Shown here in pieces: positions 9,001 to 14,273 of a stretch of DNA of 48,484 bases. The stretch lies in contig CAJQPO010000011.1 in assembly GCA_905480225.1 (NCBI GenBank), positions 1 through 48,484 of the forward strand, read 5' to 3'. The number at the start of each line of letters is the position of its first letter. Positions within the stretch are counted from its first letter, which is position 1. A program made the translations under genes and the position numbers. The DNA comes from an uncultured Flavobacteriales bacterium. Its GTDB lineage: Bacteria; Bacteroidota; Bacteroidia; Flavobacteriales_D; Parvicellaceae. The notes beneath the pieces were generated by a model. That model was not told the DNA's origin, searched no databases, and was given only the letters and a program-made list of their open reading frames with translations.

Positions 9001-10053
9001 ATGTCGATTAACATAAACCTGTTAAGTGAAATTTGCAGAACTCCTGGCGCTCCAGGGTTTGAACAAAAAGTTAGAGAGCTAGTCATCAAAGAAGTAGAGC
9101 CCTATGTAGATGCCATTGAGGTTGACAATATGGGGAATGTTTCCGCCATTAAAAAAGGTAAAAGCGACAAGAGGGTGATGATAGGTGCCCACATGGATGA
9201 AATTGGATTTATTGTAACGCACATTGACGACGACGGCTTCCTGAGGTTTCATACACTTGGAGGATTTGATCCGAAAACCCATACCGCACAAAGAGTAATC
9301 GTACACGGAAAGAAGGACCTTGTTGGTGTAATGAGTTCCAAGCCAATCCATGTAATGACACCAGAAGAAAGAAACAAACTAGCCAAGAACTCAGACTATT
9401 TCATTGACCTTGGAATGAAGAAAGATGAGGTTGAAAAATTCGTTGAAATAGGCACTCCGGTTACTAGACAACGAGACCTGATTGAGATGGGCGATTGTGT
9501 CAATTCAAAGTCACTAGACAACAGATTAGCTGTTTTTATTCTTATCGAGATGCTTAAAGAGTTGAAAGACGTGGATGTGCCATATGACATCTACGGTGTG
9601 TTTACCGTGCAAGAAGAAGTTGGCTTGAGAGGAGCGAACACCTCGGCCCAAAATATTCAACCGGATTGGGGTTTTGGTTTAGATACAACAATTGCGTTTG
9701 ATTGTCCAGGCGCAGCTAAACATGAAAAGATTACTTCCCTTGGCAAGGGTACTGCCATAAAAATTATGGACTCCAGGACCATATGTGATTATAGAATGGT
9801 GGCATATATGAAACAGGTTGCAGAAAAGCACAAGATAACCTGGCAACCAGAAATTTTGACTGCCGGAGGAACAGACACAGCAGGAATACAGCAGATGACA
9901 GACGGTGGCTCAATTGCGGGTGCCGTATCCATTCCAACTAGACATTTACACCAATCCGTCGAAATGGCCAACAAAGAAGACATCAGAGGAAGTATCGATT
10001 TACTAAAGGCATGCTGTATTGAGCTCGATCTGTACGATTGGTCTTTCAAATAA
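9001..10053 (+). CDS. M42 family glutamyl/deblocking aminopeptidase
   Basis: A 350-aa cytoplasmic dinuclear metallopeptidase of clan MH, family M42 (FrvX/PepA/TET type), which trims N-terminal residues from peptides. Metal and catalytic residues are visible: H64 and D66 in IGAHMDEIGF, D173 in SKSLDNR, E205/E206 in VQEEVGLRG, the GLDTTIAFD stretch, and H315 in SIPTRHLHQSVEMA. Length matches the family, whose members often form dodecameric tetrahedral particles. It follows pyk by 32 nt and may be co-transcribed; the shared job, if any, is not evident. Confidence 0.93.
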   Translation: MSININLLSEICRTPGAPGFEQKVRELVIKEVEPYVDAIEVDNMGNVSAIKKGKSDKRVMIGAHMDEIGFIVTHIDDDGFLRFHTLGGFDPKTHTAQRVIVHGKKDLVGVMSSKPIHVMTPEERNKLAKNSDYFIDLGMKKDEVEKFVEIGTPVTRQRDLIEMGDCVNSKSLDNRLAVFILIEMLKELKDVDVPYDIYGVFTVQEEVGLRGANTSAQNIQPDWGFGLDTTIAFDCPGAAKHEKITSLGKGTAIKIMDSRTICDYRMVAYMKQVAEKHKITWQPEILTAGGTDTAGIQQMTDGGSIAGAVSIPTRHLHQSVEMANKEDIRGSIDLLKACCIELDLYDWSFK

Positions 10054-10127
10054 CCGACGACTTGAAAACAAATTTTTAACGGATGCATAAGTCTTTAACA
10101 GATGATAGATCAGGATTGTAAATTGGT

Positions 10128-11567
10128 TTGATTTTTAGTAGTCTTATATTTTTATTTGCTTTTCTACCTATAGCTTAAGGCATTTACTATTTATTGCCTG
10201 CTTCTTGGAAGAATTACTTTTTAATTTTAGTAAGCTTGATTTTTTTCGCTTGGGGCGGAGTTAGCTATTCTATAATCATTGTTTCATCAATTACATTCAA
10301 TTATCTACTCGGTCTTTTTCTTGATAAGAAATACAAGAGAATTGTTTTGCTTCTGGGTTTGACACTGAACATTGGGATCCTTTTTTACTTTAAGTATTTG
10401 GGGTTTCTAATCACTAATTTATTTTATGTCTTCAGTATTCAATCAGTAGACCCTAACGCCTTTGACGTAGTGCTTCCTATCGGTATTTCGTTTTATACCT
10501 TCCAGGCAATCTCTTACCTAATTGACGCTTATCAGGGTAAAGTTAAAATTCAAAAACGCCTAGATCAACTAGCATTATACATTATTCTTTTTCCGCAGCT
10601 AATAGCCGGACCAATTGTTCGTTATTACGAAATCAAGGATCAGATTAAAGAACGGAAGCACTCTTTGATAAAGTTCTCTTCGGGAGTCAGTCGATTTGCT
10701 TTTGGGCTTGGCAAAAAGGTGCTTATTGCAAACGTACTGGGGGAGTATTCAGAAGAAGTATTTTTAATACCAATTGACAAATTAGATTTAGTTACAGCCT
10801 GGGCCGGTGCTAGTTTGTACGCTTTTCAGATTTATTTTGATTTTTCAGGGTACTCGGATATGGCAATTGGGCTTGGTAAAATGTTTGGATTTGATTTTCC
10901 TGAAAACTTCAATTTTCCTTACGCTGCACGATCAATTAAGGACTTTTGGCGAAGATGGCACATCACACTTTCATCTTGGTTTAGGGATTACCTATATATC
11001 CCTTTAGGTGGCAGTAGAGGGGGAAAGTTCAGGACGCTTTTAAACCTAACGATCGTTTTCATTATCACTGGATTTTGGCACGGTGCAGCCTGGAATTTTC
11101 TAATTTGGGGATTGATTCATGGGTTATTTATCGTAATTGAGAGAGCAGGCTTATCTAAGCTATTGAGCAAGGCACCAAACATTGTTGGCATATTATACAC
11201 TTGCCCAATTGTTATAGTAGCTTGGGTGTTTTTCAGGGAAGAGAATTTGCAAAACTCCTTGGACCAAATTAATATTATGTTCGGTGGAGGCGAGGCAACA
11301 GAGATCAACTATCCATTTTTGAGTCAGTTTTTACATGTGAGGTTGTTGCTAGTCATTGGTTTAGCTTTTTTGTTTTCAACGGGAATATTGAGCTGGATTT
11401 ATGATGGCCTTAAAACGGCATCAAAACATTTTTCGCCAAGAATACAAAATACTGCAGGATTCACGATTTCAATTGTTTCAGGACTCACCCCTGTTGCAAT
11501 AATGTTTTTGTGCATGATAGAATTGAATTTAAATTCATACAACCCATTTATATATTTCCGTTTTTGA
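10128..11567 (+). pseudogene. MBOAT family O-acyltransferase (AlgI/DltB-like), N-terminus interrupted by in-frame TAA
   Basis: Multi-pass membrane O-acyltransferase that passes acetyl groups across the membrane for polysaccharide modification, like AlgI or DltB. Family hallmarks are DFSGYSDMAIGLGKMFG, the FPYAARSIKDFWRRWH motif, WFRDYLYIPLGGSR and the catalytic His in TGFWHGAAWN. The uninterrupted frame begins at a TTG at 10194 (457 aa), but the true family N-terminus is visible just upstream in the same frame: from TTG 10128, IFSSLIFLFAFLPIA, then TAA (10176-10178), then GIYYLLPASWKN. One base change (TTA to TAA) explains it. Either a nonsense mutation has removed most of the first helix, with weak reinitiation at 10194, or this is a sequencing error. 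The following AlgJ-like gene overlaps by one base (TGATG). Confidence 0.75.
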
Positions 11568-12709
11568 TGATTCGATTAAAGTCCATAATTATATTGGTTT
11601 CGTTTATTGCGATAATTGCATTCTCAAATTCAGGCTATTTGTTTGAAGTTGAATCCATTGAAAACCTTGAAAACAGGAACATGGCTAAGTGCCCAAAGCT
11701 GATCTTAAGTAATCTAGATCCGTTTCCGCGTGAATTTGAAAAATACTATGTAGACAATTTTAACTTTCGCCAAACTCTTCTAGAGTGGAATAAATATTTA
11801 AAAGTTAATGTGTTTAAAGAATCTCCACATAAATCAGTAATCATAGGTTCAGACGGATTTCTTTTTGCTGAGAAATACATTAACACCTACACACACCAAC
11901 GAATATTTTCTGAAAATGAAATCAACATGTTCAAGGAAGAATTTACGAGAAGAGTCCGCTGGCTTCAGTCAATCAACGTAAAGCATTATTTGGCCATTGT
12001 TCCCACTAAATTCAATGTCTACTCAGAAAAATTGCCGTTTCATGTACGGCAGTTAACACCAGCGAGTCAAACAACTCAATTCATTGATGCGGTTTCAGAC
12101 ATTGAAGGGATGAACCTGATTAATCTGAAGGACACGCTCCTCCAGGCAGCGCCACTACTTGATGAGAGGCTTTATTACAATACTGACCAACATTGGAATC
12201 AGCTTGGGGCGTATGTGGCCTATTCAAAAATTTTAAATGAGATAAGAAAAGATTTTCCTCAGACCCCAGTTACAAGTCTAGACGCAATGCGCATTACCTC
12301 AGAAAAGACCAAAGGTACTGGCCTTGCCAAAACGATCTTAATGCAAGAGGAGTTTCCAGACAAAGAAATTCAAATTAGTCCGAGGAATAAAATTTTTGAT
12401 TTCTCAACATATAAATACACTTATCCGATTCCTGAAAAATTTCCATACAAGAATGAGTTTCAAGTTCACTACAAATCACACGACGAGTCGCTGCCAAAAA
12501 TCTTGTTCATACGCGATTCCTATTCAAATAATATGCTAGATTTTTTCGGGATGTCATTCAGTGAAAGCATTCTCATCTGGGACAACTGGAACTATAAGTT
12601 GAATGAAGAAATCGTGAAAAGAGAAAAGCCTGATATTATACTCACTTTGATTATTGAAGCAAATTTGGAGTATATCTTGTACAAGCACCCAAATGAAAGG
12701 GAAGAATAG
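11567..12709 (+). CDS. AlgJ/AlgX-like SGNH-fold polysaccharide O-acetylation protein
   Basis: A 380-aa protein with one N-terminal membrane anchor (MIRLKSIIILVSFIAIIAF) and a periplasmic SGNH/DHHW-type domain. The catalytic set is visible: D207 and H209 in NTDQHWNQLG, and nucleophile S318 in FIRDSYSNNML. Proteins of this type receive acetyl groups exported by an MBOAT partner and transfer them to a polysaccharide. The ATG at 11567 shares its A with the MBOAT stop codon, the tight coupling typical of algI-algJ-like pairs; the frame extends upstream to 11510 but that part only overlaps the MBOAT gene. The polysaccharide is unknown; no biosynthesis locus is adjacent apart from the convergent sugar-transferase homologue. 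Confidence 0.85.
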   Translation: MIRLKSIIILVSFIAIIAFSNSGYLFEVESIENLENRNMAKCPKLILSNLDPFPREFEKYYVDNFNFRQTLLEWNKYLKVNVFKESPHKSVIIGSDGFLFAEKYINTYTHQRIFSENEINMFKEEFTRRVRWLQSINVKHYLAIVPTKFNVYSEKLPFHVRQLTPASQTTQFIDAVSDIEGMNLINLKDTLLQAAPLLDERLYYNTDQHWNQLGAYVAYSKILNEIRKDFPQTPVTSLDAMRITSEKTKGTGLAKTILMQEEFPDKEIQISPRNKIFDFSTYKYTYPIPEKFPYKNEFQVHYKSHDESLPKILFIRDSYSNNMLDFFGMSFSESILIWDNWNYKLNEEIVKREKPDIILTLIIEANLEYILYKHPNEREE

Positions 12710-12718
12710 TAGTAGGCT

Positions 12719-12740
12719 ATTTCCTTCAAAATCAGGAAAT
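12719..12740. terminator. Hairpin between convergent AlgJ-like and sugar-transferase genes
   Basis: ATTTCCT (12719-12725) pairs perfectly with AGGAAAT (12734-12740) around an eight-base loop, exactly in the convergent gap. There is no T run on either side, so termination is only a suggestion. Confidence 0.3.
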
Positions 12741-13900
12741 TAACAATGGCTGAAAGTGCTTCTTATTAAAATTTTTATATCCCCAACAAAACTGTTGTGC
12801 TGGGCATACAGAAGATTTAAATCAAGTTCTTTGCCGTTACCCTTTCCTATTGCATGTGCCATCGTAATGATGCCGGCAGGAGCAGTAAATCGTATAGAAT
12901 CTTTATCGGTAGTTAGTCGCTCAGCCTCATGTACTTTTAAGGGCCTATTCCCAACAATACTAATGTCTCCCCTTAGCACATTAACGAACCTAGGAACCAA
13001 ATGTAGTTTTGACTTTTTGATTAATCGAATTAAAATTGAATCAGATTCAGGACTTGTTTCTTCATCTAATTTTTTGGTTTTTATGTGTAAAAAAAGACGT
13101 TCACAAATCTCCTGCTCTTCAATCCTTAACAACGGAGAACATGGACGGCACAACTGCTCGCATTCAGAGCAGTTATGATCGTCCGATGTATAGGTGTAAT
13201 AGCGGCGTGTATTACAGTCTTGAATATCGTTTTGTTTCGTATTGTCTAGATTCATTAGTGTGAGCTGATAAAGATTAAAATTCTTATACCCGGCCCCGAC
13301 TCGCTTCACTTTTGTAAACACAGGTCCTTTTTGATGTAGCTTAATAAACACGATAAGCAGGAAAAATAACGGAGCAGAAAAAGCAAGAGCCGCAGCGGAA
13401 AAGGCGATATCAAAAGAACGTTTTAAAGGAGAAGGGCTGGTATTTTTAGGTGCCTCGTAATTGGCTGTACAACTGGATTGAATTCTAGAATGTAGAAAGC
13501 AAATGCGTTCAAACAACAAATCTGTACTGGTAGACTTAAACAACACATCGTCAATAGCGAGTGTACTGGAAAAATTTATTTCTTCTTCCGACAACAGCTC
13601 ATCAGAAATCAGCAAGAACAGTGGTCGGAGTAATTCGCAAGACATAAGCTCCGGGCTTTGTTTTAGTTGTGCTAGATTATCTGACAATTCATACTCGGTC
13701 AGAATTAAATCTGGAGAAATACTTTGGTTGTGAATAACGGCAGAAGCCTCTTCAAAAGTGTAGCAATGTATCAAGTGAAAATTACGGATATCGAAGGCCT
13801 GCATTCTAGAAACGAACCATATGTCGGGCCCAATATAGATGCCGCACATGGTTTGTGTATTTTCTGAATATTTTATGTCCTTAATATTATGCTCGAACAT
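12740..13900 (-). CDS. Divergent sugar-phosphate transferase homologue with N-terminal pseudo-receiver domain
   Basis: A 386-aa protein with two parts. Residues about 20-135 resemble a response-regulator receiver: PDLILTEYEL has Glu69 where the phosphorylated Asp is expected, and a Lys (K122) sits near the usual C-terminal site. Residues 158-386 resemble bacterial polyprenyl-phosphate sugar-1-phosphate transferases: KRSFDIAFSAAALAFSAPLF with a membrane helix, KGPVFTKVKRVG, and VNVLRGDISIVGNRPL. Yet the canonical KFRTM is QLTLM (212-216), and the usual DELPQ is replaced by LHLVPR. A C-x2-C-x3-C-x2-C cluster (C244, C247, C251, C254) sits in the loop. It may be inactive, regulatory or of changed specificity. 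It overlaps the upstream receiver gene by 14 nt. Confidence 0.72.
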   Translation of the reverse strand: MFEHNIKDIKYSENTQTMCGIYIGPDIWFVSRMQAFDIRNFHLIHCYTFEEASAVIHNQSISPDLILTEYELSDNLAQLKQSPELMSCELLRPLFLLISDELLSEEEINFSSTLAIDDVLFKSTSTDLLFERICFLHSRIQSSCTANYEAPKNTSPSPLKRSFDIAFSAAALAFSAPLFFLLIVFIKLHQKGPVFTKVKRVGAGYKNFNLYQLTLMNLDNTKQNDIQDCNTRRYYTYTSDDHNCSECEQLCRPCSPLLRIEEQEICERLFLHIKTKKLDEETSPESDSILIRLIKKSKLHLVPRFVNVLRGDISIVGNRPLKVHEAERLTTDKDSIRFTAPAGIITMAHAIGKGNGKELDLNLLYAQHNSFVGDIKILIRSTFSHC

Positions 13901-14273
13901 ATTTCGATCGATTAATCAAATTAGCAATGCGAAGCGTTAGCTCTTGCGGACTAAAAGGCTTTATCATGTATTCGTCAGCACCTAATTCAAAACACTTGAT
14001 TCGTTCTGCGCTTGTTTCCAAACCGCTTAACATCATTATTGGAATTGTACTAAGGAATGCACTTGCTTTGATGTTTTGCAATAATTTCCAGCCATCTATT
14101 TCAGGCATCATGATGTCTGCAATGATAACGTCAGGCTTATTTCCTTGACCTAACCAAGTGAGGGCTTCACTACCATTGGTAGTGGTAATAACCTCGTATT
14201 CACTGGATAGCAGATGCTGTAATAAAAGCGAAATGGACGCATTGTCCTCAGCAATAAGAATTTTCTTTTTCAT
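13887..14273 (-). CDS. Single-domain response regulator (CheY-like receiver)
   Basis: A 128-aa stand-alone receiver domain. Conserved features are the acidic pair E9/D10 in LIAEDN, the phospho-acceptor D53 in VIIADIMMPEIDG, S83 in MLSG and K105 in MIKPFSPQEL. No output domain is present, so it should signal by protein contact. The stop lies inside the next gene (14-nt overlap), which encodes a pseudo-receiver fused to a sugar transferase homologue, so that protein is the obvious candidate partner. No histidine kinase gene lies nearby; the kinase must be encoded elsewhere. Confidence 0.93.
   Translation of the reverse strand: MKKKILIAEDNASISLLLQHLLSSEYEVITTTNGSEALTWLGQGNKPDVIIADIMMPEIDGWKLLQNIKASAFLSTIPIMMLSGLETSAERIKCFELGADEYMIKPFSPQELTLRIANLINRSKYVRA

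Follow-up and report, generated by a model that had tools for sequence, protein, structure and literature searches.

Genes and domains at the locus

The window, by which we mean the whole stretch of 48,484 nucleotides that was analysed, encodes on its minus strand (12740..13900, the strand also of the protein segments and of the regulator gene given below) a protein of 386 aa, read from an ATG start, whose residues 160-382 match PF02397 with 93.6 bits (cut-off 27) over profile positions 1-174 of 179. PF02397 is the bacterial sugar transferase domain, and enzymes carrying it normally initiate the synthesis of surface sugar chains. The first 14 bases of this gene are shared with the end of a gene for a single-domain response regulator of 128 aa (13887..14273; PF00072, 88.5 bits), in which the acidic pair and the Asp, Ser and Lys residues are intact, and the same overlap of 14 bases was found at the orthologous loci of two further species, i.e. 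in 3/3 members of the genus. Hereafter the window's genome, which is 96% complete, is labelled G000 and those of the other two species G001 and G002; the genomes compared are incomplete assemblies. Promoter-like sites numbered 5 versus 6.0 expected and terminator-like sites 3 versus 1.2 (sd 1.1), all of the latter in the gap that separates pheS from the gene for the regulator.

The whole-domain PF02397 match and a D-X12-P re-entrant helix motif identify the window protein as a homologue of the monotopic phosphoglycosyl transferase superfamily. In sequence searches it matched the undecaprenyl-phosphate galactose phosphotransferase 8T53 (E 3e-8), PglC (8e-8 and 1e-7) and WbaP chains (3e-5), and with PglC (8G1N, 8E37), 8T53 and WbaP (9S7S, 30US and others) it has in common the monotopic core with its re-entrant helix. 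This helix comprises residues 158-190 (13331..13429) and keeps D164 and P177 of the motif as defined in PMC12802240; the Asp is replaced by Glu in G001. AlphaFold models (three sequences each) reached mean pLDDT values of 34.5 and 48.3, too low for the models to be used.

The N-terminal residues 17-140 (13481..13852) correspond to an eroded receiver domain. The Pfam search retrieved no PF00072 match in the transferase at E up to 1, and when the N-termini of the genus members were set directly against response regulators, the profile match was weak (44.6%, E 2e-4). The same N-termini matched those of relatives with intact catalytic dyads (97.7%, E 2e-12), which in turn matched the neighbouring response regulators (99.6%, E 3e-24), and because of this chain of profiles the domain is most likely receiver-derived; these comparisons took in 22 of the 34 such relatives (loci L004, L033-L062 and L066-L068), the other 12 being without a long N-terminus. 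In the joint alignment the phospho-Asp column of the window protein is filled by E69, the acidic pair by G24-P25 with D26 adjoining and the Lys column by K122, the Ser and Lys of the receiver set being present and the acidic pair and Asp absent; the full set is found in 0/25 N-termini. An earlier note on this DNA had pointed to the missing acidic pair and to Glu69 as a natural phosphomimic. Both substitutions are real and both are typical of the family: the phospho-Asp column holds Glu in 9 of the 25 N-termini (3 from the genus and 6 from relatives), Asp in 6 and other residues in 10, so that the 22 relatives with intact dyads split into Glu 6, Asp 6 and other 10. Since the residue at this column switches between Glu, Asp and others within the family, Glu69 was dropped as a distinguishing phosphomimic and is better seen as part of a family-wide erosion, although it might still matter within the genus, 3/3 members of which share D26, E69 and K122.

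The active site in the genus and in its relatives

Catalysis by PglC involves the D93-E94 dyad with K59, R88 and R111 (PMC12802240, whose numbering we follow). When the window protein was aligned to 8E37, 8G1N and 8T53, K59 fell on Q212, R88 on K295, D93 on H300 and E94 on L301, and both in this alignment and in that with 61 homologues the D-E-L-P-Q columns are occupied by H300-L301-V302-P303-R304. The protein has therefore neither the Asp-Glu dyad, which is present in PglC and WbaP, nor Lys59 and Arg88, all of which are expected of an active phosphoglycosyl transferase. The alignments agree with the earlier observation that QLTLM (residues 212-216; 13253..13267) stands where KFRTM, or more generally K[FL]R[ST]M, is found in other transferases. 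The accompanying claim that DELPQ had become LHLVPR was right in that the segment is replaced and off by one in its register, the aligned five being HLVPR and the dyad position H300-L301 (12998..13003). KGPVF is retained as had been noted, and so is the conserved active-site Arg of GNRP (R319; 12944..12946), which is here taken as R111 of PMC12802240, though counting from the dyad gives 112.

These losses separate the genus from every other homologue aligned. K59, R88, D93, E94 and the GNRP Arg are present in 61/61 transferases from outside the genus in the 64-protein alignment, and the Pro of the re-entrant helix in 60/61; the 61 are the best search matches rather than a random PF02397 sample, and 15 loci, either repeats of the same proteins or fetched for other genes, were excluded before counting. 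In the three genus members the Lys59 column reads Q/Q/Q, the Asp93 column H/H/N, the Glu94 column L/L/C and the GNRP column R/R/R, so that Lys59, Asp93 and Glu94 are lost in 3/3 versus 0/61. The Arg88 column reads K, K and R, the G001 residue being uncertain since it hangs on gap placement. The pair Q212-L213 was considered as a derived mark of the genus and reduced to Q212 alone, as Leu at the next position occurs in some relatives too.

Invariant across 3/3 genus members are R319, the EAExLTTD block and the four cysteines of a loop with the pattern C244-X2-C247-X6-C254-X11-C266 (residues 244-266; 13103..13171). The four-Cys pattern, lying between KFRSM and DELPQ, occurs in 20/34 of the Bacteroidota relatives with intact dyads, the remaining 14 having the loop without the pattern. 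G000 and G002 retain the C-terminal D374, a position that the shorter G001 protein does not reach. The disappearance of the catalytic dyad and of Lys59 from all genus members, together with the purifying selection measured between two of them, supports the proposal, already made in the earlier note, that the window protein is a retired enzyme.

Selection, recombination and gene history

Comparison of the window transferase gene with its G002 orthologue yielded dS 0.59, dN 0.114 and a dN/dS of 0.192 (codon bootstrap 0.136-0.264), the ratio being 0.094 (0.044-0.172) for residues 1-140 and 0.279 (0.183-0.417) for residues 150-386; for the re-entrant helix alone it was 0.54 (0.165-1.784), which is compatible with neutrality. 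Neutral simulations left 0/500 sequences stop-free at the G002 distance, where the lowest simulated ratio of nonsynonymous to synonymous counts was 1.90 versus 0.95 observed, and 0/300 at about 36% identity, the G001 distance. Reading frames are intact in 3/3 species, the G001 copy being shorter at the C-terminus. On this codon evidence, with selection measured on one species pair (G000/G002) of a gene known from three species, the transferase gene is under purifying selection since the G000/G002 split and is not a decaying pseudogene. The two species share one pattern of missing catalytic residues, and the loss therefore most simply predates their split. The constraint is nonetheless weak relative to the neighbouring genes, since the transferase has the highest dN/dS of 17 comparable genes (19 tried), the other 16 ranging from 0.012 to 0.163 with the response regulator at 0.032, and since its C-terminus is shortened in G001.

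Conservation is unevenly spread along the protein. Identity between G000 and G001 is 124/351 overall, 50/124 in residues 17-140, 23/50 in residues 226-275 and 25/54 in residues 292-345. Compared with G002, codons 184-250 show almost no synonymous difference, with the same codon at 59/60 shared residues, and this stretch is most simply read as a short recombination tract; at the nucleotide level, positions 13150-13350 of the window form an island of 0.90-0.98 identity inside the otherwise divergent gene. An RNA element behind these codons was considered and rejected, as an Rfam search up to E 0.1 retrieved nothing and codon sharing with G001, at 0.50, was not clearly above the overall value of 0.44. 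Because of the probable tract, conservation of the Cys loop between G000 and G002 weighs little and the comparison with G001 is the better guide. Elsewhere in the window, a pair of MBOAT and AlgX-like genes (9788-12700) has dS values versus G002 of 0.09-0.15, compared to 0.45-0.96 in the other 15 genes, and looks like another recombination tract between the window species and G002; in G001 the same slot holds SpoIIE and FIST genes.

The window and G001 have the regulator/transferase pair at a common locus, flanked by the genes for pyruvate kinase and M42 peptidase on one side and pheS, cyclophilin and pgk on the other (names from Pfam matches of the G001 copies), with different genes inserted beside the pair in each, as judged from 20 kb of G001. 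Identities between the two are 81% for pyruvate kinase, 88% for the M42 peptidase, 77% for pheS, 62% for cyclophilin, 71% for pgk and 73% for the regulator versus 36% for the transferase. The transferase tree, built from 43 proteins, places those of the genus in a single clade (100/97) whose branches are long (1.8, 1.01 and 3.45 versus a median end branch of 0.3); the tool warned of long-branch joining, and one other row (L034) was trimmed too short. A single origin of the genus proteins is argued by the shared Q212 and by C-N-x-R-x-x-Y-T-Y-T, neither of them seen in the aligned relatives. The response regulators of the three genus members also form a single clade (100/99), here on branches of ordinary length, and group with those of G710 and G508 (96/87), whose transferases are intact.

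A gene for a single-domain response regulator lies directly upstream of the transferase in 25/34 relatives with intact dyads and in 3/3 genus members, and in these 28 neighbouring regulators the phospho-column is Asp in 27/28 and the Ser and Lys are present in 28/28. A second receiver-domain gene was observed upstream of the response regulator in G710 (L066 3018-3509) and G508 (L067 323-787), which may indicate a longer phosphorelay there. The window regulator retrieved matches at E 1e-25 in 3/39 genomes of the family, all within the genus, and an order-wide scan with the genus alignment (E 1e-12, at most four candidates scored per genome) recovered 7/399 genomes, namely the three of the genus and four with intact dyads.

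The probable former pathway and the proposed role of the pair

In the relatives whose active sites are intact, the regulator/transferase pair belongs to an exopolysaccharide operon. Bacteroidota proteins such as those of G043 (L004), G710 (L066), G508 (L067) and G694 (L068) have the same order of receiver-like and PF02397 domains, the four-Cys loop and a neighbouring regulator; they keep K59, R88, D93 and E94 and adjoin Wzc-like genes, whereas the window protein is without K59, D93 and E94 and lies apart from such genes. In G043 a hybrid histidine kinase gene is followed by those for the response regulator, the transferase, an outer membrane efflux protein, a Wzc-like protein (GNVR domain with 23.9 bits, below the cut-off of 27.7), a Wzy-like protein and three glycosyltransferases, and a Wzc-like gene is also found near the transferase in G710, G508 and G694.

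We searched the genus for three genes of this operon, i.e. those for the Wzc-like, efflux and Wzy-like proteins. The full G043 Wzc-like query gave E 1.5e-74 in G710, and in the genus 9e-4 in G000 and, over part of its length, 2e-16 in G001 and 5e-15 in G002; the G508 Wzc-like fragment retrieved nothing from G000 and G002 and a weak match from G001 (4.6e-4). The Wzz family has 3 matches in the window's own genome. With the efflux protein as query, E values of 2e-10 to 2e-14 were obtained beside the transferases of G710, G508 and G694, and matches in the genus had 19-25% identity (E 4e-7 to 1e-5) and lay on other contigs or far away. The Wzy-like query had no match in the three genus genomes, an absence which is not telling alone because this protein is missing also from G710 and G694, whose transferases are intact. 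As far as these homology searches go, the genus encodes distantly related proteins of the Wzc and TolC types, and close copies of the Wzc-like, efflux and Wzy-like genes were not retrieved. Besides the window protein, a single PF02397 protein was found in the same genome, a large WcaJ/WbaP-type transferase with YKFRSM and LDELPQ intact; it is encoded on another contig, and no functional link between it and the window protein was found.

Taken together, the loss of catalytic residues, the conserved pairing, the continued selection and the lack of a close copy of three operon genes support a reading in which a regulator-transferase switch would have outlived its pathway and persist as a catalytically dead, membrane-anchored partner of the response regulator, an explanation to which we give about an even chance. 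The long branches, rapid evolution, shortened G001 C-terminus and lack of a close copy of the three operon genes would also fit a slowly decaying relic which died with its operon and drifts, held in frame only through the overlap with the regulator gene. We regard such a relic as improbable, because the overlap shields only 14 bases, no bootstrap value of dN/dS reached 1, and frames intact in 3/3 species are not what the neutral runs produced. Alternatively, the protein could have remained an enzyme by means of a rearranged catalytic site, e.g. one in which His300 is the nucleophile, and act on a different phosphate substrate; in favour of this are the retained fold motifs, EAExLTTD block and GNRP Arg. 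Such activity is quite improbable in our opinion: two species have His-Leu at the dyad site where the third has Asn-Cys, all three have lost Lys59 and two have Lys for Arg88, so that no shared replacement is visible.

A role as ligand sensor, with the old site binding a UDP-sugar or undecaprenyl phosphate, or the Cys loop a metal or redox signal, and the protein reporting to the regulator, is unlikely, yet it draws on R319, the re-entrant helix motif (with its Asp to Glu change in G001), the four retained cysteines and the comparatively good conservation of residues 226-275 between G000 and G001. Against it, Lys59 is lost and Arg88 is lost in two species, residues which both orient the substrate in PglC; residues 226-275 overlap the recombination-like stretch, so that part of their conservation in G002 is uninformative, and metal binding is a guess from the motif.

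Returning to the dead-partner explanation, the ancestral pair would have consisted of a single-domain response regulator and a membrane-bound transferase with an eroded receiver, together controlling the first step of exopolysaccharide synthesis. In the genus the rest of the operon was probably lost and the transferase was deprived of its catalytic residues while the pair was kept. By analogy with EpsW and EpsZ of Myxococcus, the phosphorylated regulator would probably dock on the pseudo-receiver and the transferase shell and alter the contact of the shell with another target. The remaining role would be one of binding, either keeping the regulator at the membrane or acting on another enzyme, for which the intact large PF02397 transferase of the same genome is the likeliest target and first candidate. 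Ancestral function, dependence on phosphorylation and the role of the Cys loop are likewise to be taken as presumptive. The suggestion of the earlier note that the enzyme has turned into a regulator agrees with the receiver-like N-terminus and with the overlap, conserved in the genus, with the gene of an intact response regulator, and we infer that the window protein is now probably a regulator rather than an enzyme. Its alternative of a scaffold for polysaccharide assembly is uncertain, given the three operon genes without a close copy in the genus, and for this reason any polysaccharide target probably belongs to another pathway.

A related arrangement has been described in Myxococcus xanthus, where a single-domain response regulator, EpsW, is likewise paired with an initiating phosphoglycosyl transferase, EpsZ; phosphorylated EpsW is reported to stimulate EpsZ, and structural models suggest that it promotes dimer formation (PMC12802240). 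EpsZ differs in being an active, large enzyme that comprises a bundle of transmembrane helices and a cytoplasmic DUF (PMC12802240), whereas in the window protein the catalytic residues are gone and a pseudo-receiver precedes the catalytic domain. Receiver domains occur in some small monotopic transferases, as PMC12802240 states citing an earlier survey, and the architecture is therefore already known, the dead but selected version being new; no pseudoenzymes of the phosphoglycosyl transferase superfamily were found in the full text of open-licence PubMed Central papers. Thus, a similar regulator/transferase pair recurs in Bacteroidota, in 25/34 relatives with intact dyads, and one genus has an enzyme half that appears dead and yet selected, which would separate a docking role from catalysis and provide a natural test of what the regulator binds.
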